A DNA stretch of 64,000 nt. Origin: Georgenia subflava. Lineage in GTDB: Bacteria > Actinomycetota > Actinomycetes > Actinomycetales > Actinomycetaceae. Below the pieces are notes generated by a model, which saw nothing but the letters and a program-made list of their open reading frames with translations, was not told the DNA's origin and ran no database searches. Where the stretch lies: positions 620,001-684,000 of the forward strand of contig NZ_VUKD01000001.1 in the NCBI RefSeq assembly GCF_009193155.1. The letters are read 5' to 3'. Shown one piece after another: positions 14,483 to 30,134 of this stretch; positions within the stretch are counted from its first letter, which is position 1, and each line of letters starts with the position of its first letter. Position numbers and translations under genes: made by a program.

Positions 14483-15214
14483 GTGAAGCCCTTCCTGCTC
14501 CTGGCCACGCGGCCCGAGGACGCCGCCGCGGACAGCGAGTACGAGGCGTTCCTGCGCTACGGCGGTCTGGCCGAGCACGAGCTCGTCCGGATCCGGCTCG
14601 ACTCCGTGAACCTGCCCCCGGTGGACCTCGACGACTATTCCGGCATCATCGTCGGCGGAAGCCCCTACACCGGGTCGATCCCCACCGAGCACAAGTCGGA
14701 CACCCAGCGCCGGGTGGAGGCCGAGCTCGCGGGCCTGCTCGACGCCGTCGTCGCCGCCGACTTCCCGTTCCTGGGCGCCTGCTACGGCATCGGCACGCTC
14801 GCCCGGCACCAGGGTGCCGCGATCGACGGCACCCACGCCGAGCCGATCAGCGCCCCGACCATCGAGCTCACCGAGGAGGGGGTCGCCGACCCGCTGCTGG
14901 CAGGCCTGCCGCGGTTCTTCCGTGCCTTCGTCGGCCACAAGGAGGCCGTCAGCCACCTGCCGGAGCACGCCGTCCTGCTCGCGCGTTCCGAGCTCTGCCC
15001 CGTGCAGATGTTCCGTGTCGGCGCGAACCTCTACGGCACGCAGTTCCACCCCGAGCTGGACGTTCCGGGGATCATCGAGCGCATCCGGATCTACCGCGAC
15101 GCCGGCTACTACGACCCGGCGGAGCAGGAGCAGATCGAGTCCGAGGTCGCCGACGCCGGAGTCGTGGTCCCGCCGCTGCTGATCCGCAACTTCGTCAGCC
15201 GCTACGCCCGATGA
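14483..15214 (+). CDS. class I glutamine amidotransferase (GMP synthase-like)
   Basis: A 243-residue free-standing GATase with GTG start. The nucleophile is Cys100 in FLGACYGIGTLARHQG, and the His-Glu pair is in TQFHPELD. The IIVGGSPYTGS loop is the oxyanion region. Such proteins release ammonia from glutamine or act as gamma-glutamyl hydrolases; the acceptor is unknown. The stop overlaps the start of the following sirtuin gene as ATGA (15211-15214), so the two are co-translated and may act on linked substrates. Confidence 0.88.
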   Translation: MKPFLLLATRPEDAAADSEYEAFLRYGGLAEHELVRIRLDSVNLPPVDLDDYSGIIVGGSPYTGSIPTEHKSDTQRRVEAELAGLLDAVVAADFPFLGACYGIGTLARHQGAAIDGTHAEPISAPTIELTEEGVADPLLAGLPRFFRAFVGHKEAVSHLPEHAVLLARSELCPVQMFRVGANLYGTQFHPELDVPGIIERIRIYRDAGYYDPAEQEQIESEVADAGVVVPPLLIRNFVSRYAR

Positions 15215-16080
15215 CCACGTCGACCCGCCCGCCACTGGGTGCCGACGAGCTCGCCCGTGCGGTGGCCGAGGTCGCCGACCTCCTGCGCGGGCGACGCACC
15301 GTCGCGCTCACCGGAGCCGGCCTCTCCACCGAGGCGGGCCTGCCGGACTACCGCGGCTCGGGCGTGCCGGAGCGCGAACCGATCAGCTACCAGCAGTTCG
15401 TGGGGGCCGAGCACTGGCGCCGCTACTGCTGGGCCCGCAACCAGGCGGGCTGGTCCCTGCTCGAGCGGCTGGCGCCGACGGCGGGGCACCGTGCACTCGC
15501 CGAGCTGGAGGCCGGCGGGCTCGTCGGCGGGGTGATCACCCAGAACGTCGACCGGCTCCACACCCGGGCCGGCTCGCGCCGCGTGCACGAGCTGCACGGC
15601 GCCTACGACCGGGTGGTCTGCCTCGACTGCGGCGACCGCAGCTCCCGCGCCGAGCTGGACGCACGGCTCCGGTCCCTCAACCCGGGGCTGGTTGCCGTCG
15701 CCTCGCTCGCGGAGGTCGAGGTGCTGCCGGCCGCCGACGAGTCGCGGGCCATCGTGTGCACCTTCGAGACGGCGCCGTGCGACCGGTGCGGCGGCACGCT
15801 CAAGCCCGACGTCGTCTTCTTCGGCGAGCTCCTGCCGGCCGACGAGATGGAACGCTCCTTCGCCCTCGTCGAGGAGAGTGACGTCTTGCTCGTCGCCGGG
15901 ACGTCGCTCGCGGTGCAGACCGGGATGTGGATGGTCCAGGAGGCGCTCGACCTCGGCCGTGACGTCGTCGTCGTCAACCACGGCCCCACCGCGGCGGACC
16001 GGCACGCGACCGTCCGGGTGACCGGCGGCACCGGCGAGGTGCTCGGCGGCGTGGCCGAGCGGCTCGCGCAGGGCGCCTGA
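15211..16080 (+). CDS. Sir2-family NAD-dependent deacylase
   Basis: A 289-residue sirtuin. NAD-binding motif GAGLSTEAGLPDYRG, active-site TQNVDRLH, catalytic His in HELHGAYD, and a four-cysteine zinc site (CLDCG and CDRCGG) are all present, followed by TLKPDVVFFGE. It removes acyl groups from lysines using NAD. It is coupled to the GATase gene upstream. A second, paralogous sirtuin lies at 29136. Confidence 0.93.
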   Translation: MTTSTRPPLGADELARAVAEVADLLRGRRTVALTGAGLSTEAGLPDYRGSGVPEREPISYQQFVGAEHWRRYCWARNQAGWSLLERLAPTAGHRALAELEAGGLVGGVITQNVDRLHTRAGSRRVHELHGAYDRVVCLDCGDRSSRAELDARLRSLNPGLVAVASLAEVEVLPAADESRAIVCTFETAPCDRCGGTLKPDVVFFGELLPADEMERSFALVEESDVLLVAGTSLAVQTGMWMVQEALDLGRDVVVVNHGPTAADRHATVRVTGGTGEVLGGVAERLAQGA

Positions 16081-18334: not shown

Positions 18335-19327
18335 ATGAGCACTCCTCAGGCCACCTCGACCCTCTCCGCGGAGGACCGCAGCGCACGCGTCGCGGTCACC
18401 CTCTTCCCGGTGCTGATCCTCGCCGGAGCGGCGATCGCGTTCTTCTTCCCGGACACGTTCAGCCCGCTGGGCAGCGCGATCAACACGCTGCTCGGGATCA
18501 TCATGTTCGGGATGGGCCTGACCCTCACCCTGCCCGACTTCAAGCTCGTGGTCACCCGGCCGCTGCCCGTGCTCCTCGGCGTGATCGCCCAGTACTCGAT
18601 CATGCCGCTGCTCGGCCTGGGCGTCTCCTGGGTGCTGCAGCTGCCGCCGGAGCTGGCGGCCGGCGTCATCCTGGTGGGCTGCGCGCCCGGCGGGACGTCG
18701 TCGAACGTGGTGACGTACCTCGCCAAGGGCGACACCGCCCTGTCGGTGACCATGACCTCGGTCTCCACCCTGCTCGCACCGCTGTTCACGCCGGTCCTCA
18801 CGCTGTGGCTGGCCGGTCAGTACATGCCGGTCGACGGCGTCGGCATGGCCAAGTCGATCGTGCAGATCGTCCTGCTCCCCGTCGCGCTCGGCCTGATCGT
18901 CCGGCTGGCGCTGCCGAGGTTCGTCAACAAGGCCCTGCCCGGGCTGCCGTGGCTCTCGGTCGTCGCGATCACCCTGGTGGTCGTGGCCGTCGTCGCGGGC
19001 AGCGCGGAAAAGATCGTCGAGGCCGGGCTGCTCGTGCTGGCGGCGGTCGTGCTGCACAACTGCCTCGGCTACGCGATCGGCTACGGCTTCGCAGCGGTCA
19101 CCAGGCAGCCGGAGCGCGTCCGCCGCACCGTGGCCGTCGAGGTCGGCATGCAGAACTCCGGTCTCGCCGCCGGCCTGGCGGCGGTGCACTTCAGCCCGCT
19201 GGCTGCTCTGCCGGGCGCCGTGTTCTCGGTGTGGCACAACATCTCGGGTGCCATCCTCGCCGCGATCCTGCGCCGTCGTCCGCTGGCCGCCGAGCCGACG
19301 CGCGAGCCGGCCGGCATCGCGTCCTGA
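18335..19327 (+). CDS. bile acid:sodium symporter (BASS) family transporter
   Basis: A 330-residue membrane protein with nine to ten hydrophobic segments. BASS hallmarks: NTLLGIIMFGMGLTLTLPDF, LVGCAPGGTSSNVVTYLAKGD (sodium site) and VAVEVGMQNSGLAAGLA. Bacterial members carry pantoate, keto acids or similar monocarboxylates rather than bile acids; the substrate is unknown. It ends in two hairpins. Confidence 0.9.
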   Translation: MSTPQATSTLSAEDRSARVAVTLFPVLILAGAAIAFFFPDTFSPLGSAINTLLGIIMFGMGLTLTLPDFKLVVTRPLPVLLGVIAQYSIMPLLGLGVSWVLQLPPELAAGVILVGCAPGGTSSNVVTYLAKGDTALSVTMTSVSTLLAPLFTPVLTLWLAGQYMPVDGVGMAKSIVQIVLLPVALGLIVRLALPRFVNKALPGLPWLSVVAITLVVVAVVAGSAEKIVEAGLLVLAAVVLHNCLGYAIGYGFAAVTRQPERVRRTVAVEVGMQNSGLAAGLAAVHFSPLAALPGAVFSVWHNISGAILAAILRRRPLAAEPTREPAGIAS

Positions 19328-19474: not shown

Positions 19475-20872
19475 GTGACTGACGCTCCTGGACTCGGCGT
19501 GCGCCGGACGGTCTCGACCACGCTGCCGACCGCGCACGGCACCTTCGCCATGCACGGGTACGACGGCGCGGGCGGCCTCGGCCACGTCGCCCTGGTGATG
19601 GGAGACGTCGCCGACGACGGCCTGGACGGCGTCGCCCCGCTGGTGCGGGTGCACTCGGAGTGCCTGACCGGGGACGCCTTCGGCTCGCGCCGCTGCGACT
19701 GCGGCGAGCAGCTCGACGCCGCCCTGGCCACGGTCGCCGCCGAGGGCCGCGGCATGGTGGTCTACGTGCGCGGGCACGAGGGCCGCGGGATCGGCCTGCT
19801 CGCCAAGCTCCGCGCGTACGCCCTCCAGGACGCCGGCCTGGACACGGTGGACGCCAACCTCGAGCTCGGCTACCCCGCGGACGCCCGCGAGTACGACGAG
19901 GTCGCGGACATCCTGCACGATCTCGGCGCCACCCGGATCCGGCTGCTCTCGTCCAACCCGGAGAAGGCCGAACGACTGGACGCGCTGGGCATCGACGTCG
20001 TCGCCCGGCAGACGCTGCCGGTGGCCGACCGGCCCGAGAACTCCTTCTACCTGAGCACCAAGCGCCGGCGCATGCGGCACGACAGCCTCGGGCCCGCGCC
20101 GGACGTGTGGTCCGAGCTGGTCGCCGGCAGGGTGCCGGTGCACGCCGTGGCCGGCCCGGACTCCGTGGTGCTGGACCGGTACGCCCCGCTCGTCGCCGCC
20201 GGGACCGAGCTGACCGTCGCGCAGCTCGGGCAGAGCCTGGACGGGTTCATCGCCGCCCGGACCGGCGACGCCGAGTTCGTCACCGGCGAGCAGGACCGTG
20301 AGCACCTGCACCGGCTGCGGGCGCTGGTCGACGCGGTGGTGGTCGGTGCCGCCACGGTGGTCGCCGACGACCCCCGCCTCACCACCCGGGCGGTGGCCGG
20401 CCCGTCACCGGCGCGCGTCGTGCTCGACCCCCGCGCCCGCGTCCCTGCCGGCGCGCGCGTCCTGACCGCCGACGACGCCCCCACCCTGTGGTGCGTGGCC
20501 CCGGGCGCCGGCGTGCCGGCCGAGATGCCGGGGCACGTCGAGGTGGTTCGGCTGCCCGTCACGGAGGCGGGGTTCGACCCGGCCGCGGTGCTGGAGCTGC
20601 TGCGGTCCCGGGGGCTGGGCCGCGTGCTCGTCGAGGGCGGCGGCCGGCTCGTCTCGGCCTTCCTCACCGCGGGGCTGCTGGACCGCCTGTTCCTCACGAC
20701 GGCGCCGCTGCTCATCGGCGACGGCGTCCCCGGGATCCGGTTCGACGGCTCCGACCGGCTGGCGGACGCGCTCAGCGCCCCGGTGCGCCGGTTCGTCCTG
20801 GGCGAGGACGTCTGCACGGAGTTCGACCTGGCGGCCATGCGCACCCCTACGGTGTCGACCGACCAGTCCTGA
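19475..20872 (+). CDS. GTP cyclohydrolase II fused to a RibD C-terminal (pyrimidine reductase) domain
   Basis: A 465-residue fusion with GTG start. Residues about 20-205 are GTP cyclohydrolase II: zinc cysteines in [19 protein letters not shown], the [23 protein letters not shown] active-site block retaining the Tyr that sets release of the 2,5-diamino product, and [13 protein letters not shown]. Residues about 240-460 are a RibD_C/DHFR-like reductase: [36 protein letters not shown] and [14 protein letters not shown]. The usual RibB and RibD deaminase partners are missing from the protein, so it may convert GTP to a ring-opened, reduced diaminopyrimidine for something other than bulk riboflavin. 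It faces the PTPS-like/glycosyltransferase operon. Confidence 0.9.
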
Positions 20873-20918
20873 GACCGGCACCGTCAGCCGAGCGTGTGCA
20901 GCCGACGGATCCCGGATC

Positions 20919-20957
20919 GGTGAGGAATCGGTGCGATAGATGCATCGAACCCTCACC
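20919..20957. repeat. 39-bp palindromic repeat family, copy 2
   Basis: GGTGAGGAATCGGTGC (20919-20934), a short loop, then GCATCGAACCCTCACC (20942-20957): imperfect 16-bp arms. It lies between the convergent RibA-fusion and glycosyltransferase genes and overlaps the last two codons of the latter. Confidence 0.8.
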
Positions 20958-22164
20958 GTTGTCCGGAGATCGCCCCGAGCACCGCCGCCGCCGTGGCGTC
21001 CCAGCCGGGGAGCCGGCGACGGCGGTCGACGGCGGTGCGGCGCCAGGCGTGCCGCAGCTCGGGATCGGTCAGCCAGGTACGCAGCACCTCCGCGAGCGTC
21101 TCCGGATCGCCCGGTGCCACCGCGCAGCCCGGCAGCGAGCCCTCGAACGGCAACCAGCCGTGGGAAGAGCTCTCCGCCGGCAGCCAACCGCGGGGAGAGT
21201 TCTCCCCCGGCAGCCAGCCGCGGGGAGAGCTCTCGAACGGCATCTTTCGACCAGGCGGGGAGGCTGCCGGCGCTGACGCAACGCTGTCGTCCCTGCCGAG
21301 CTCGGCCGACGAGCCCATGCCGAGGGCCTCCACCGCTCCGGTACCGGCAGGCACGACGGCGGGCACTCCGTGCGCCAGCGCCTCCAGCACCACCAGACCG
21401 AAGGTCTCCGTACGGGAGGGGAGCACGAGCAGGTCGGCGTCGGCCCACTGGGTCGCCAGCGCGGCGCCCTCGAGCGTCCCGGGCAGCAGCACCCGGTCGC
21501 CGAGACCGAGCGTGGCGACCACCGCACGAACGCGCGCGGCGTAGTCGGGAGCCACCTCCGGCGAGCCCACCAGGCTCGCCGACCAGTCCAGGTCCGCCAC
21601 GCGGGCCAGCGCGCGGACGAGCGTCAGCGGGTCCTTGGTCGCGGTGAGGTTCGCGACGGCGAGGATGCGCGGCGGCGTCGAGCCGCCGGACAGCGGTGCC
21701 GGCGATGCACCCGGCCGGGCGACGTGCACGTGCGTCAGCCCGTGACGGACGCTCAGGTCCGCGGCCGCGCCCCGGCTGGTGGCAACCACCGCGGTCGCCG
21801 CCCGTAGGGCACGCCCCTCGGCCTCCTCGCGACGGGCGCGCTCGACGGTTCCCAGCCCCGTCTCGTCGGCCACCGCCATGTGGACGAGCACGCAGACCCG
21901 GTGGCCCGCCGCGACCGCGGCGCCCACGGGCCCCGGCGCCCCGCTCGCCACGACGCCGTCCACGAGGCTCAGCGGCTGCGCGGCGAGCACGTGCCCGAGC
22001 TCGCGGAGGTCCTGCTCCCCGGGCGTGGGCCAGGAGCCCGGCAGCGCCCGGACGGTGACGTCGGTACCCGCCCGGCGCAGCGCCGCGACGAGCTCGCGGT
22101 CGTAGGTGTTGCCCCCGCTCGGACCCGTGCGGTCCCAGGTCACGAAGTCCAGCCGCTCGAGCAT
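20953..22164 (-). CDS. GT4-type glycosyltransferase with an internal repeat insertion
   Basis: A 403-residue GT-B transferase. N-terminal domain LDFVTWDRTGPSGGNTYDRE; C-terminal nucleotide-sugar domain with ADADLLVLPSRTETFGLVVLEALAHGVPAVV and GCAVAPGDPETLAEVL. About 60 residues that should be a short loop between these last two blocks are replaced by a Ser/Pro/Gly-rich insertion with three 10-residue units of the form SPRGWLPGEN. The ATG at 22164 was chosen for the AGGG ahead of it; GTG at 22173 is possible. It follows the PTPS-like gene by 22 nt, in the order dehydrogenase, PTPS-like, transferase. Acceptor unknown. Confidence 0.85.
   Translation of the reverse strand: MLERLDFVTWDRTGPSGGNTYDRELVAALRRAGTDVTVRALPGSWPTPGEQDLRELGHVLAAQPLSLVDGVVASGAPGPVGAAVAAGHRVCVLVHMAVADETGLGTVERARREEAEGRALRAATAVVATSRGAAADLSVRHGLTHVHVARPGASPAPLSGGSTPPRILAVANLTATKDPLTLVRALARVADLDWSASLVGSPEVAPDYAARVRAVVATLGLGDRVLLPGTLEGAALATQWADADLLVLPSRTETFGLVVLEALAHGVPAVVPAGTGAVEALGMGSSAELGRDDSVASAPAASPPGRKMPFESSPRGWLPGENSPRGWLPAESSSHGWLPFEGSLPGCAVAPGDPETLAEVLRTWLTDPELRHAWRRTAVDRRRRLPGWDATAAAVLGAISGQR
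21148..21237. repeat. 30-bp in-frame minisatellite inside the glycosyltransferase
   Basis: Three adjacent 30-bp units at 21148-21177, 21178-21207 and 21208-21237, each close to CGGCAGCCAGCCGCGGGGAG followed by AGCTCTCCCC. The units contain the inverted repeat GGGGAGA/TCTCCCC. On the minus strand they keep the reading frame and encode ten residues each. Confidence 0.9.
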
Positions 22165-22186
22165 CACGGCCACCCTGCCGCGGGGC

Positions 22187-22564
22187 TCACAGCTCGCGGC
22201 TGTACGTCGCCCACGCGTCGGGATGCTCGCGCAGGGTGACCTCCAGGCCCGCGTACGTCCCGACCACCAGCCGGGCGGCGACGCGCTCGGCCACGAGCCG
22301 GGCGAGCGCCTCGGTGGTGGTGAGGGTGCCCGCGAGATCGGGGTGCTCGTCGAGGTTGGAGTAGTCCAGGTCCGCGATGGCGTCCTTGAGCAGGCCGGTC
22401 GCCTCGCCGATGTCCATCACGATCGCCTCGGGACCGAGCTCCGCGCGCCGGATCGTCAGCTCCACCACGAAGGTCGCGCCGTGCAGGCCCTGCGCGGGAC
22501 CGAACGCCGGGTGGGGCAGGGAATGGGCGATCATCATGTGGTCGCGCACGGTGAGGGCGAACAT
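22187..22564 (-). CDS. 6-pyruvoyltetrahydropterin synthase-like protein with altered active site
   Basis: A 125-residue protein of PTPS/QueD length beginning MFALTVRDHMMIAHSL. The first zinc histidine is kept (MIAHSL) and LHGATF corresponds to the LHGH zinc pair, but its second His is Ala. The catalytic Cys that precedes LHGH in QueD is absent (GPAQGLHG), and the LDHHYLN catalytic His region reads LDYSNLDEH. So it probably does not catalyse the QueD or PTPS reaction as known. The intact frame, TTTEALA helix and tight coupling (TGATG with the dehydrogenase stop) argue for a working protein with another function on a pteridine-like or pyrimidine substrate. Confidence 0.82.
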   Translation of the reverse strand: MFALTVRDHMMIAHSLPHPAFGPAQGLHGATFVVELTIRRAELGPEAIVMDIGEATGLLKDAIADLDYSNLDEHPDLAGTLTTTEALARLVAERVAARLVVGTYAGLEVTLREHPDAWATYSREL

Positions 22565-23535
22565 CAGGCTCCTTCGGGGTAGACGATTACGTGGCACATC
22601 GCTCCGTCACCGGCGTAGAGCCGCTCCATGGTGGCCGGGAGATCGGCGAAGTCGGAGCGGCCGGTGAGGAAGGTGTCGAAGACCGGGTCGGCGAGCTGCC
22701 GCATCGCCAGGGCGAGGCGGTCCGCCGTCGTGCGGCGTGCCCGCCTGGACGCGGCGACGGCGCCCACCTGGCTGGCGCGCAGGCTCAGGCGGCGAGCGTG
22801 GAACGTCCCGCCGAGCGGCACGCGCGGCGCGGCGGTGCCGTACCAGCTCATCTCGACGAGCTCGCCCTCGTCGCCGAGCAGCTCGAGACCGCGGGCCAGG
22901 CCGGCCTCGGAGGCGGAGCAGTGGATCACCAGGTCGCAGTCGCCGGCGGCGTCCTCGGGGCGGACCCACTCGACGCCGAGCGCCCGGGCCAGCTCGGCAC
23001 GCGCGGGGTCGACGTCCACGAGCTGGAGCCGGTCGAGCGGGAAGGAGCGCAGCAGCGCCGTCACCGACGCGCCGATCATCCCGGCCCCGACGACGGCGAC
23101 CCGGTCGCCGAGCCGCGGGGCCGCGTCCCACAGCGCGTTGACGGCGGTCTCCACGGCCCCGGCGAGCACTGCCCGGTCGGTCGGGACGTCGTCGGGCACG
23201 GGCGTCAGCGCGGTCGCCGGCACCACGTAGCGGTCCTGGTGCGGGTGGAGGCAGAACACCCGCCGCCCGACCAGCTCGGCCGGCCCCTCCTCGACGACGC
23301 CGACCGAGAGGTAGCCGTACTTCACCGGCCCGGGCAGGTCGCCGTCCTGGAACGGTGCGCGCATGGTCTCGGCCACCTCGGCCGGCACGCGACCGGCGTG
23401 CACCAGCATCTCGGTCCCGCGGCTCACGCCGGAGCGCAGCGTGCGCACGAGGGCCTCGTCGGCGGCGGGCTCGCGCGCCGGCTCCGTGCGCAGCTCCCCG
23501 CGACGCGGCGCAGTCGTCCAGTACGCGGTCCACAT
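22564..23535 (-). CDS. MDR-family dehydrogenase lacking zinc motifs
   Basis: A 323-residue medium-chain dehydrogenase/reductase. It has the SGVSRGTEMLVHAGRVP block seen in a BchC-like subgroup, PVKYGYLSVGVVEEG, and a Rossmann motif VAVVGAGMIGASVTALL with an acidic LVDVD end that favours NAD. The classic GHE catalytic-zinc motif and structural four-cysteine lobe are not visible. It is first in the operon with the PTPS-like and glycosyltransferase genes, and its stop overlaps the next start. Confidence 0.85.
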   Translation of the reverse strand: MWTAYWTTAPRRGELRTEPAREPAADEALVRTLRSGVSRGTEMLVHAGRVPAEVAETMRAPFQDGDLPGPVKYGYLSVGVVEEGPAELVGRRVFCLHPHQDRYVVPATALTPVPDDVPTDRAVLAGAVETAVNALWDAAPRLGDRVAVVGAGMIGASVTALLRSFPLDRLQLVDVDPARAELARALGVEWVRPEDAAGDCDLVIHCSASEAGLARGLELLGDEGELVEMSWYGTAAPRVPLGGTFHARRLSLRASQVGAVAASRRARRTTADRLALAMRQLADPVFDTFLTGRSDFADLPATMERLYAGDGAMCHVIVYPEGA

Positions 23536-23545
23536 GGGCTCGATT

Positions 23546-23679
23546 GTGTCGTGCCCGGCCGACGGCGCACCCGGAGCGTGCGGCCGGCCCGGTGGCCGGG
23601 ATCACCGCGGCCGTGTCGTGCCCGGCCGACGGCGCACCCGGAGCGTGCGACTGCCTCGGTGGCCGGGATCACCGGGGCA
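23546..23679. repeat. 67-bp tandem duplication in a divergent promoter region
   Basis: Two copies (23546-23612 and 23613-23679) with a third partial start at 23680. Each begins GTGTCGTGCCCGGCCGACGG and includes GGTGGCCGGGATCACCG, itself an inverted repeat. They lie between the divergent dehydrogenase operon and the HAD gene. Confidence 0.85.
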
Positions 23680-23758
23680 GTGTCCCGCCCGGGCGACGCG
23701 CGGCGCTGCCGCACGGATACGGTGGTGGTATCCCGTCTGGTGAAGGAAGCAGCCCCGT

Positions 23759-24586
23759 ATGAACGTGCCCGAGGAGCTCCTCGACGTCCGTGCCGTCGCG
23801 TTCGACGTGGACGGCACGCTCGCTGGGACGGACCACCGCGTCACGGTGCGCACGCTCCGGGCCCTGGCCGACCTGCGGGCCGCCGGCGTCGAGCCGATCG
23901 TCATCACCGGGCGGATCCTCAGCGAGGCCCTGGCGATCTTCGCCGGCGCCGGGATCGACGGCCACGCGGTCGCGTCCAACGGCGCGGTCGCCGTCGACAC
24001 CCGCAAGACCGTGCCGCTGCACACGGCCACCCTGCCGGAGGTGGAGGCGCGCGCCGTCGTCGGCTTCTGCGACGGCCGCCCGATCGAACCGAGCCTGTTC
24101 ACCGCGGACGCGATGGTGGTGCCCGAGGGCAGCCTCGTCTACGACCTCCTCCGCGAGGTCAACCCCGACTCGACGACGCTCGCGGTCCCCCGCGACGCGC
24201 TGCCGTACACCTCGACGATGAAGGCGGCGATCATCGGGGAACCCGCGACCCTGGATGCCCTCGACGGCGAGATCCGGGCGGCGTTCCCGCGGATGACCCG
24301 GTCGATGGACACGGTCTTCGACCTCAGCCCGAGCGACGCCGACAAGTGGGTGGCGCTGCAGGTGGTGCTCGCGGACGTCGGGCTGGACCCCGCCGAGGTG
24401 GCCGGGGTCGGCGACGGCGAGAACGACCTGGTGTGGCTCTCGCAGGTCGGCTTCCCGGTCGCCATGGGCAACGCCCGCTCCGCCGTGCGCGACCTGGCCC
24501 GCCTGCACATCGGGCACCACGGCGAGGAGGCGGTGGCCGAGCTGGTCGAGGCGCTGCTCGCGGCGCGGACCGCCCGCCCCGCCTGA
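23759..24586 (+). CDS. Cof-type HAD-IIB phosphatase
   Basis: A 275-residue HAD hydrolase. Motif I is FDVDGTLAGTD, motif II VITGR, and motif IV GVGDGENDLVWL; the large C2 cap lies between. Relatives in this subfamily dephosphorylate sugar phosphates, and some (B. subtilis YcsE/YitU, E. coli YbjI type) remove phosphate from the ribitylamino-pyrimidine riboflavin intermediate. Its position next to a RibA-RibD_C locus makes a similar role plausible here, but that is inference. AAGGAAG precedes the start. Confidence 0.9.
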   Translation: MNVPEELLDVRAVAFDVDGTLAGTDHRVTVRTLRALADLRAAGVEPIVITGRILSEALAIFAGAGIDGHAVASNGAVAVDTRKTVPLHTATLPEVEARAVVGFCDGRPIEPSLFTADAMVVPEGSLVYDLLREVNPDSTTLAVPRDALPYTSTMKAAIIGEPATLDALDGEIRAAFPRMTRSMDTVFDLSPSDADKWVALQVVLADVGLDPAEVAGVGDGENDLVWLSQVGFPVAMGNARSAVRDLARLHIGHHGEEAVAELVEALLAARTARPA

Positions 24587-29135: not shown

Positions 29136-30134
29136 ATGAGCAGCGCCGACGATCCGCCGGACCGGCCGGGGCACGGGCATGGGCACGGCCACCACACCGT
29201 CGCCGAGCTGTTCCCGCGTACGCACGCGGACGCGCCGCCGCGGTTCGTCATCAAGCCCGCACCCGTCCCGCCGCCGACGACGGACCACCCGCCCGACCCC
29301 GAGGACGTCGACGCCGCACTGGCACCGGTCGTCGCCTCGCTGGCCGGGCGCCGGCTGGCGGTCCTGACCGGGGCGGGACTGTCCACGGACTCCGGCATCC
29401 CCGACTACCGCTCCCCCGGCGCGCCGCCGCGGCACCCGATGACCCACCAGCAGTTCGTCTCCTCGGCAGCGTTCCGTCGCCACTACTGGGCACGCAACCA
29501 CCTGGGCTGGCGCCACCTGCACGCCGCGCGCCCGAACGCCGGCCACGTCGCGCTGGCCGCCATGGAGGACGCCGACCTGCTCACGGGCCTGATCACGCAG
29601 AACATCGACCTGCTCCATCTGCGGGCAGGGTCGCGTACGGTCGTCCACCTCCACGGTCGCTACGACACGGTGGTGTGCCTGAGCTGCGGGAAGACCGTCT
29701 CCCGCGAGGAGCACGACGCCGTCCTGGTGGCGCTCAACCCGCACTTCGGGCGGTTCGAGGGCGTGGCCGACCTCGAGGTCGCCCCGGACGCCGACGTCGT
29801 GCTGGAGTCGACCGCCGACTTCGAGGTGGCGGACTGCTCGCGCTGCGGCGGCATCCTCAAGCCGGACGTCGTCTTCTTCGGCGACAACACCCCGCGCCAC
29901 CGCGTGGAGGCGGCGTACGCCCTGGTCGACGACGCCGACGCCCTGCTGGTGGCGGGCTCGTCGCTCGCGGTGATGAGCGGTCTGCGGTTCGTGCGCCGGG
30001 CGGCCAAGGCGGGCAAGCCGGTGGCGATCATCAACAGGGGCGCGACCCGCGGCGACGACCTCGCGACGGTGCGCCTCCACGCCGGCACCACCACCGCCCT
30101 GCCGCTGCTCGCCGCCGCTCTGACCGCCCCATAG
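29136..30134 (+). CDS. Sir2-family NAD-dependent deacylase with His-rich N-terminal extension
   Basis: A 332-residue sirtuin. The first 65 residues are an extension with GHGHGHGHH and a proline-rich stretch, not present in the paralog at 15211. The catalytic core has GAGLSTDSGIPDYRS, TQNIDLLH, VHLHGRYD (catalytic His), zinc cysteines CLSCG and CSRCGG, and LKPDVVFFGDN. The polyhistidine stretch could bind a metal or act as an interaction tag; no data decide this. Confidence 0.92.
   Translation: MSSADDPPDRPGHGHGHGHHTVAELFPRTHADAPPRFVIKPAPVPPPTTDHPPDPEDVDAALAPVVASLAGRRLAVLTGAGLSTDSGIPDYRSPGAPPRHPMTHQQFVSSAAFRRHYWARNHLGWRHLHAARPNAGHVALAAMEDADLLTGLITQNIDLLHLRAGSRTVVHLHGRYDTVVCLSCGKTVSREEHDAVLVALNPHFGRFEGVADLEVAPDADVVLESTADFEVADCSRCGGILKPDVVFFGDNTPRHRVEAAYALVDDADALLVAGSSLAVMSGLRFVRRAAKAGKPVAIINRGATRGDDLATVRLHAGTTTALPLLAAALTAP

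Follow-up and report, generated by a model that had tools for sequence, protein, structure and literature searches.

The 64-kb stretch of DNA analysed here (the window), from a Georgenia-like genome, carries five genes between positions 19475 and 24586, all of which lie where the initial annotation had placed them and have the folds claimed for them, according to Pfam and NCBIfam scores. A RibA-RibD_C fusion gene (19475-20872, forward strand; alternative start possible at 19499) converges with a three-gene operon on the reverse strand, with 80 bases between their ends. The operon encodes, in order, an MDR-superfamily dehydrogenase (22564-23535; weak PF00107 match of 21.7 bits), a 125-aa T-fold protein of PTPS-IV type (22187-22564; PF01242, 83 bits; longer start possible at 22597), whose gene overlaps that of the MDR protein by 1 base, and a GT4-type glycosyltransferase (GT; 20953-22173; PF00534, 77 bits). 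A Cof-type HAD phosphatase gene, a lineage-specific neighbour, lies at 23759-24586 on the forward strand (PF08282, 132 bits). Two repeats absent from the earlier description were also observed, namely a 30-bp tandem repeat within the GT gene (21137-21242), encoding a low-confidence insert (residues 299-336), and a 67-bp repeat between the MDR and HAD genes (23546-23698).

The fusion consists of a PF00925 domain (residues 11-178; 207 bits) and a PF01872 domain (residues 249-420; 135.1 bits, cut-off 24.1). Its GTP cyclohydrolase II (GCH II) half passes both TIGR00505 (214; cut-off 205.85) and PRK00393 (222.5; cut-off 148), and displays the three zinc cysteines (CCC) together with a Tyr at the switch position, equivalent to E. 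coli Tyr105, as in canonical enzymes. On the strength of the family cut-off and the active-site residues, the fusion is predicted to be a GTP cyclohydrolase II, and it is the only one found in the genome, as a profile search returned no other PF00925 match. The RibD_C half falls below the NCBIfam cut-offs for riboflavin reductases (TIGR00227, 124.2 against 150.15; TIGR00326, 110.8 against 156.35; TIGR01508, 107.1 against 186.45).

The nearest solved relative of the PTPS protein is SCO6650 (PDB 3d7j; E 9.5e-35). The initial description of this protein as an altered PTPS-like protein proved apt, since HGA replaces the HGH metal motif and the CxxxHGH-type motif is missing. The CxxxHGH, CxxxxxHGH and ExxHGH motifs (QueD and PTPS-I, II and III) occur in none of 80 aligned PTPS rows, and the window protein scores 40 against the QueD profile (cut-off 89.25); QueD, biopterin and folate roles were rejected on these grounds. 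By contrast with these motifs, FGPAQ is present in the window protein and in 75 of the 80 rows. In its passages on PTPS-IV, PMC5445326 (AGeNNT, 2017) gives FGPAQ as the PTPS-IV signature and describes a node of 561 sequences, with a neighbourhood including PF00925 and PF01872; the linkage of PTPS-IV, GCH II and RibD_C is therefore already in print. In the literature collection searched, no publication dealing with the cluster as a whole, or with its product, came up; two papers on Streptomyces coelicolor contain a single mention each, of SCO6655 and SCO6652.

The MDR protein remains below the PF00107 cut-off (21.7 against 31.8 bits) and gives weak BchC/HpnZ-like matches in NCBIfam. A 36-row alignment revealed SGxSRGTE and KYGYL where zinc-dependent enzymes have the zinc-ligand Cys and GHE stretches. 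By the cut-off and these ligand stretches, the protein does not classify as a zinc-dependent alcohol dehydrogenase; its predicted structure has the MDR fold (pLDDT 93.4). The AlphaFold model of the GT (pLDDT 88) has MshA and other GT4 enzymes as its nearest solved chains, and structure searches with both proteins returned family-level matches only. The HAD gene, which the initial annotation had included in the gene set, was rejected as a core member: among the best 80 of 398 confirmed PTPS loci, this type occurs in 4, all from Georgenia, while a different HAD family adjoins the fusion in 6 other loci. The window type was also found in G005, G007 and G015, and the protein scores 44 against NF045966, a YcsE-related riboflavin-pathway phosphatase family (cut-off 220).

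The distribution of the other genes was determined in the same 80 loci, 18 of which are shorter than 17 kb; as only the best 80 of 398 were kept, the set leans to close relatives. MDR is present in 80/80, GT in 78/80, RibD_C in 48/80 and GCH II in 40/80 of these loci, and 25/80 show MDR-PTPS-GT alone. Gene calling overlooked the PTPS gene of one locus (L040), and a reading frame fusing the GT to an extra domain in another (L045) was judged incidental. In line with the expectation that these genes are neighbours in related genomes, all nine genomes of the genus that were searched have a GCH II gene no more than 2.8 kb from the gene for PTPS. In a class-wide sample of 394 genomes, 57 carry PTPS-IV (6 of 63 genomes with PTPS matches, all below 50 bits, being left out), and 46 of the 57 have a GCH II gene at most 9,003 bases away, chance proximity being estimated at roughly 0.8% per genome. 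The remaining 11 have no GCH II nearby, which together with the 25 bare loci suggests that the operon may in some cases work without a GCH II of its own.

In a GCH II tree, which is partly unresolved, has flagged long branches and contains near-copies of some genomes twice, the cluster-linked enzymes fall into three supported groups, representing at least two clearly separate lineages. Tag F in this tree denotes an adjacent, not necessarily fused, RibD_C, and the label 'unlinked_other' is an artefact in 12 of its 16 rows, because these are short fusion-type loci in which the PTPS gene lies just past the locus end, 2.3-4.1 kb away. The second GCH II of the Arthrobacter-like genome G040 (L144), considered as an unlinked cluster member and placed in the Micromonospora-type clade, was not counted as support, since its frame continues into a segment resembling acyl-CoA dehydrogenase and the genes beside it, judged by eye, look like a P450 and a BioD-like gene.

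The streptomycete RibA/PTPS-like neighbourhood mentioned in the initial annotation is real. The Streptomyces loci contain the same MDR-PTPS-GT core plus GCH II, and in 4/4 of them Met/Leu occupies the switch position of the GCH II and a creatininase-family gene is present; the latter occurs in 0/43 Tyr-type cluster rows and is absent from the 64-kb window. No RibD_C was found within 19 kb in one Streptomyces locus (L159). The creatininase-family protein is homologous to ArfB but not its equivalog (NF033501, 34.4 against a cut-off of 180; E 1.9e-08), and matches MftE better (134.7 against a cut-off of 172).

Gene content, linkage, losses and residues form the basis of our main reading, to which we give a probability of roughly 0.6: the locus encodes a conserved actinobacterial pathway that starts at GTP cyclohydrolase II and does not lead to riboflavin. 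Counting against it are the 25 loci with MDR-PTPS-GT alone and the 11 genomes without a nearby GCH II, the lack of RibD_C in L159, the poorly resolved parts of the tree, the RibD_C scores below the riboflavin-reductase cut-offs and the reliance on assembly searches for missing riboflavin genes. An unlikely alternative is a glycolipid-like product, linked to the membrane or exported, whose GTP-derived head group would, in fuller clusters, undergo methylation, attachment to a lipid through a CDP-alcohol phosphatidyltransferase, and flipping. Among the best 80 of 398 loci, PF03706 flippase-like genes occur in 35, CDP-alcohol phosphatidyltransferase genes in 34, methyltransferase genes in 30 and sulfatase-like genes in 21, and a 785-aa relative in L080 starts with a CDP-alcohol domain. 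None of these four gene types adjoins the operon in the window, however. A homologue of the CDP-alcohol gene (C6) is located elsewhere in this genome (156 bits) but may be an ordinary paralogue, and a search run with no positive control, so that absence is not established, returned no PF03706-type homologue.

Less probable still is that the fusion is simply the riboflavin enzyme of the lineage, and the adjoining MDR-PTPS-GT operon an unrelated pathway. Besides its canonical Tyr and its position as the only GCH II found, two observations favour this explanation: (i) the rib operon, located elsewhere in the genome and preceded by an FMN riboswitch, has a RibB lacking the GCH II domain, and (ii) in many Micrococcaceae, MDR-PTPS-GT occurs without GCH II in the locus DNA examined. 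Against it, a complete RibD is already encoded in that rib operon, and 5 of the 9 genus genomes retain a RibBA, with its GCH II domain, plus the fusion (in 3/9, RibB lacking this domain is followed by RibH). The rib operons of both G000 and G008 carry FMN riboswitches, whereas none reached the gathering threshold in window positions 14-30 kb or at six other cluster loci, and riboswitch control of the cluster was thus rejected. GCH II of different lineages is, moreover, tied to the same operon (the 46 of 57 genomes above). Finally, three of 71 PTPS-IV genomes (G007, G015 and G089; assemblies 98, 98 and 94% complete, the last in 280 contigs) gave no match to lumazine synthase and yet keep a single GCH II, located 2.5, 2.4 and 4.1 kb, respectively, from the PTPS gene; RibB, searched within the genus only, gave no match in G007. 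Riboflavin as the sole role of the cluster GCH II therefore seems not to hold.

The third explanation, that the cluster takes part in making the deazaflavin cofactor F420, is highly improbable. F420 precursors also derive from the ribityl-pyrimidine branch, so that GCH II and a reductase would persist without riboflavin, but no F420 step is known to require such an MDR or GT4 enzyme. No F420 gene family appeared among those recurrent neighbour families that were scanned and named by Pfam, and a term search of the main text of a 2021 F420 review found no PTPS, pyruvoyl or cyclohydrolase, against a statement in PMC5041015, given there as unpublished work, that names PTPS-IV for F420 synthesis in archaea.

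Overall, a non-riboflavin GTP-derived pathway is well supported; in this genome it appears to share its GCH II with riboflavin synthesis. In agreement with the initial annotation, riboflavin synthase and lumazine synthase are missing from the gene set, and neither is encoded in the window; both are present elsewhere in the genome, where the rib operon was found, so the cluster does not hold its only riboflavin genes. Of the separate pathway that it had proposed, the conserved non-riboflavin gene set stands, while full separation from riboflavin is not supported here, since no second GCH II turned up besides the fusion. Given the rib operon without a cyclohydrolase domain, the same fusion should also supply riboflavin in this genome.

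In the pathway that we favour, the fusion would open GTP to 2,5-diamino-6-ribosylamino-4(3H)-pyrimidinone 5'-phosphate, and its RibD_C half would reduce the ribosyl to a ribityl group ahead of any deamination, an order suggested by the core cluster having no deaminase. A HAD protein may then remove the phosphate, the zinc-less PTPS-IV and MDR proteins could remodel the 2-amino-4-oxo pyrimidine, and the GT4 enzyme would attach a sugar; a glycosylated pyrimidine or pterin, as put forward in the initial annotation, is still a guess at the product. More tentatively, many Actinobacteria and Thermoleophilia may convert the GCH II product, without deamination, to a glycosylated ribityl-pyrimidine or ribityl-pterin, which several lineages would methylate and link to a lipid or export. 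The zinc-less T-fold enzyme would then perform new ring chemistry, and Streptomyces would arrive at the same intermediate via FAPy and a creatininase-family deformylase.

GCH II, usually read as a sign of riboflavin synthesis, apparently acts here in another pathway of wide distribution as well, for which alone some genomes seem to keep it, and its presence by itself does not justify calling riboflavin prototrophy. In the Georgenia relatives G007 and G015, the product could be sought free of riboflavin background. SCO6650, a solved structure without a function, and the odd GCH II SCO6655 gain a common, testable context.

The cluster shares with the bacterial riboflavin pathway (RibBA, RibD, RibE and RibH) the opening enzyme and a RibD_C-type reductase, but is devoid of deaminase, DHBP synthase, lumazine synthase and riboflavin synthase, and no FMN riboswitch was found there. 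With the queuosine and biopterin pathways (QueD, PTPS-II) it shares a T-fold protein and GTP-derived chemistry; these pathways use GCH I, whereas the window cluster uses GCH II and a PTPS-IV without the zinc and Cys motifs. In the S. coelicolor neighbourhood, the PTPS homologue SCO6650 reportedly lacks zinc, and SCO6655, the third GCH II paralogue, is said to stop at FAPy; in contrast to the Met/Leu enzymes of Streptomyces, the window GCH II has Tyr and is fused to RibD_C, with no creatininase-family partner. The Streptomyces loci resemble the archaeal FAPy route (ArfA/ArfB) in pairing a Met/Leu GCH II with a protein of ArfB's superfamily, a pairing missing from the window's cluster type. As for the published PTPS-IV neighbourhood, PMC5445326 labels PF00925 as FolE2/GTP cyclohydrolase I, while here it is GCH II, and its passages on PTPS-IV do not discuss the MDR, GT or creatininase-family genes, the loss of riboflavin genes or the product.

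All five genes named in the initial annotation proved to be real and to stand in the order it claimed. The RibA-RibD_C fusion (19475-20872, plus strand) converges on a tight minus-strand operon encoding an MDR dehydrogenase (22564-23535), a PTPS-like protein (22187-22564) and a GT4 transferase (20953-22173), from which a Cof-type HAD gene (23759-24586, plus strand) diverges. The MDR and PTPS genes overlap by 1 base and 13 bases separate PTPS from GT; in other loci, the median gaps are 3 bases (77 loci measured) and 2 bases (75 loci measured), respectively. Two tandem repeats are also present, one of 30-bp units within the GT gene (21137-21242), coding for a low-confidence insert of the GT model, and one of 67-bp units in the MDR-HAD gap (23546-23698). 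Immediately upstream of the fusion lies a PanS-like SBF-family transporter gene (18335-19327, plus strand; 303 bits against a cut-off of 400), also found in locus L033 and in genomes G005 and G015, and not found in loci L032, L034 and L035 or in genome G007. Two mutually similar Sir2-like reading frames, recognised by eye, occupy 15211-16080 and 29136-30134 (both plus strand).

The closest named relatives of the window PTPS gene belong to Georgenia (86-87% identity). In the 80 loci nearest to it (the best 80 of 398 confirmed, a set leaning to close relatives), tblastn detected MDR in 80, GT in 78, RibD_C in 48 and GCH II in 40, while only MDR-PTPS-GT was seen in 25, mostly from Arthrobacter, Pseudarthrobacter or Sinomonas. 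A second sample of 394 genomes, our own included, was drawn evenly from the class and is less biased to close relatives; the PTPS family exceeded 100 bits in 57 of them, 6 weaker genomes being dropped. The expected vicinity of PTPS and GCH II held in related genomes: the two lie within 9,003 bases in 46 of these 57 (none near in 11), where chance would give roughly 0.8% per genome, and within 2.8 kb in all nine genomes of the genus. One complete MDR-PTPS-GT cluster (L085) sits outside the Actinobacteria, on a metagenome-assembled contig labelled Rhodanobacter that is possibly mis-binned.

The idea of a pathway separate from riboflavin was examined against the rib genes of the genome. A rib operon does exist elsewhere, on contig C5, with ribD, ribE (198 aa), ribB (244 aa) and ribH (161 aa) in that order, preceded by an FMN riboswitch (L012, 6532-6666; 92 bits) that overlaps the called ribD start, so that the true start must lie later. 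However, its stand-alone RibB (L012 4044-4775, or C5 322043-322774, minus strand) is followed directly by RibH and lacks the cyclohydrolase domain present in the corresponding operon of the relative G008, and a genome-wide profile search gave a single PF00925 match, within the window. Since the rib operon is devoid of this domain, the cluster GCH II should also supply riboflavin synthesis. Among the nine genomes of the genus, five have RibB, GCH II and RibH, with a RibBA fusion at this place, and three (the source genome, G005 and G006) have RibB and RibH with no intervening GCH II, the domain having been lost from their rib operons; the ninth, G007, gave no RibB match.

Lumazine synthase (PF00885) was found in 68 of the 71 PTPS-IV genomes searched, and no match was obtained in G007 (98% complete, 1 contig), G015 (98%, 4 contigs) and G089 (94%, 280 contigs). 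Each of these three has exactly one GCH II match, and the PTPS gene lies 2.5, 2.4 and 4.1 kb away from it, respectively. In the retrieved loci, alignments run unbroken through the fusions of G007 and G015 and through the RibD_C and GCH II of G089, which are separate there. We infer that these organisms may be riboflavin auxotrophs, RibB having been sought within the genus only and the fragmented G089 being the weaker case, and that the cluster can outlive the riboflavin genes. Over the 14-30 kb part of the window, and over six further loci of the cluster (L033, L076, L084, L145, L155 and L159), no riboswitch scored at or above threshold. Overall, gene content and linkage give good support to a GTP-derived pathway distinct from riboflavin, albeit one that appears to share its GCH II with riboflavin synthesis in the source genome; its product and chemistry, as set out below, are inferred.

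The window PTPS-like protein has SCO6650 (3d7j) as nearest solved chain (E 9.5e-35; best QueD chain, 3e-5) and carries the FGPAQ signature, a mark of PTPS-IV according to PMC5445326. The protein is indeed altered, as had been proposed: HGH is replaced by HGA (75 of 80 rows) or HGV (5 rows), and none of the 80 rows bears a PTPS-I, II or III motif. Glu113 is invariant in a 31-row alignment. Its equivalent in PTPS grips the 2-amino-4-oxo edge of the ring; because that edge is lost after the RibD deaminase and the core cluster has no deaminase, we propose that the PTPS-IV substrate would be an un-deaminated pyrimidine with this edge intact. The MDR protein has SGxSRGTE and KYGYL in place of the ligands of zinc enzymes; searches with its model (pLDDT 93.4) gave MDR dehydrogenases at 14-20% identity, with polyol types among the leading hits, and for the GT model (pLDDT 88) MshA and further members of the GT4 family came closest. 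These predicted structures define families, not substrates.

In a GCH II tree of 84 rows, in which long branches were flagged, the cluster-linked enzymes form three supported groups: a RibA-RibD_C type (33 rows; 98/96), a Streptomyces group (4 rows; 100/100) and a Micromonospora/Geodermatophilus/Thermoleophilia group (23 rows; 100/99). The last stands clearly apart, and the first two branch from an unresolved fork amid the RibBA rows, which suggests that several GCH II lineages, at least two and probably three, came to accompany one operon. One Micromonospora-type member (L144 3819-5690, plus strand, genome G040), not linked to a PTPS gene, reads through into an acyl-CoA-dehydrogenase-like part and is flanked by RibD_C-like, P450-like and BioD-like frames (named by eye); it may mark another GTP-derived cluster.

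At the position of E. coli Tyr105, the window enzyme has Tyr, as do all other tree rows but the four of Streptomyces, which show Met, Met, Leu and Leu. With Met at this switch position, SCO6655 reportedly goes no further than FAPy, the formylated pyrimidine. Altered activities of Streptomyces GCH II enzymes are cited in PMC3509567. Within the fetched DNA, a creatininase-family gene (PF02633) accompanies all 4 Met/Leu loci as opposed to 0 of 43 Tyr-type cluster rows; coming from one genus, this association would hence reflect one or few events. The archaeal FAPy deformylase is ArfB, whose profile fits the Streptomyces protein only weakly at 34.4 bits (cut-off 180), and that of MftE scores higher at 134.7 (cut-off 172), both below cut-off. 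Streptomyces might divide the opening step between GCH II and the creatininase-family protein, and the wanted intermediate would then be the deformylated pyrimidine.

As for the remaining genes, the window HAD is not supported as a core pathway member, as it occurs in only 4 of the best 80 of 398 loci, limited to Georgenia and close kin. A different HAD family (Pfam checked for one member) adjoins the fusion in six other loci, and further fusion loci carry neither; a step of dephosphorylation is plausible. Fuller clusters also carry flippase-like (PF03706; 35 of the same 80 loci), CDP-alcohol phosphatidyltransferase (34), methyltransferase (30) and sulfatase-like (21) genes. The source genome has an unlinked CDP-alcohol phosphatidyltransferase homologue (C6 510815-511489; L142 7711-8493, plus strand; 156 bits, PF01066), and a search of it, run with no positive control, found no flippase-like gene. 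No RibD_C was found within 19 kb in Streptomyces locus L159.

The literature searched yielded no account of the complete cluster or of what it makes. AGeNNT places PF00925, there called FolE2, and PF01872 near 561 PTPS-IV sequences (PMC5445326), and a 2016 review assigns PTPS-IV to archaeal F420 synthesis as unpublished work (PMC5041015). The bare association of PTPS-IV with GCH II was already known; the novelty lies in the genetics brought together in this work.
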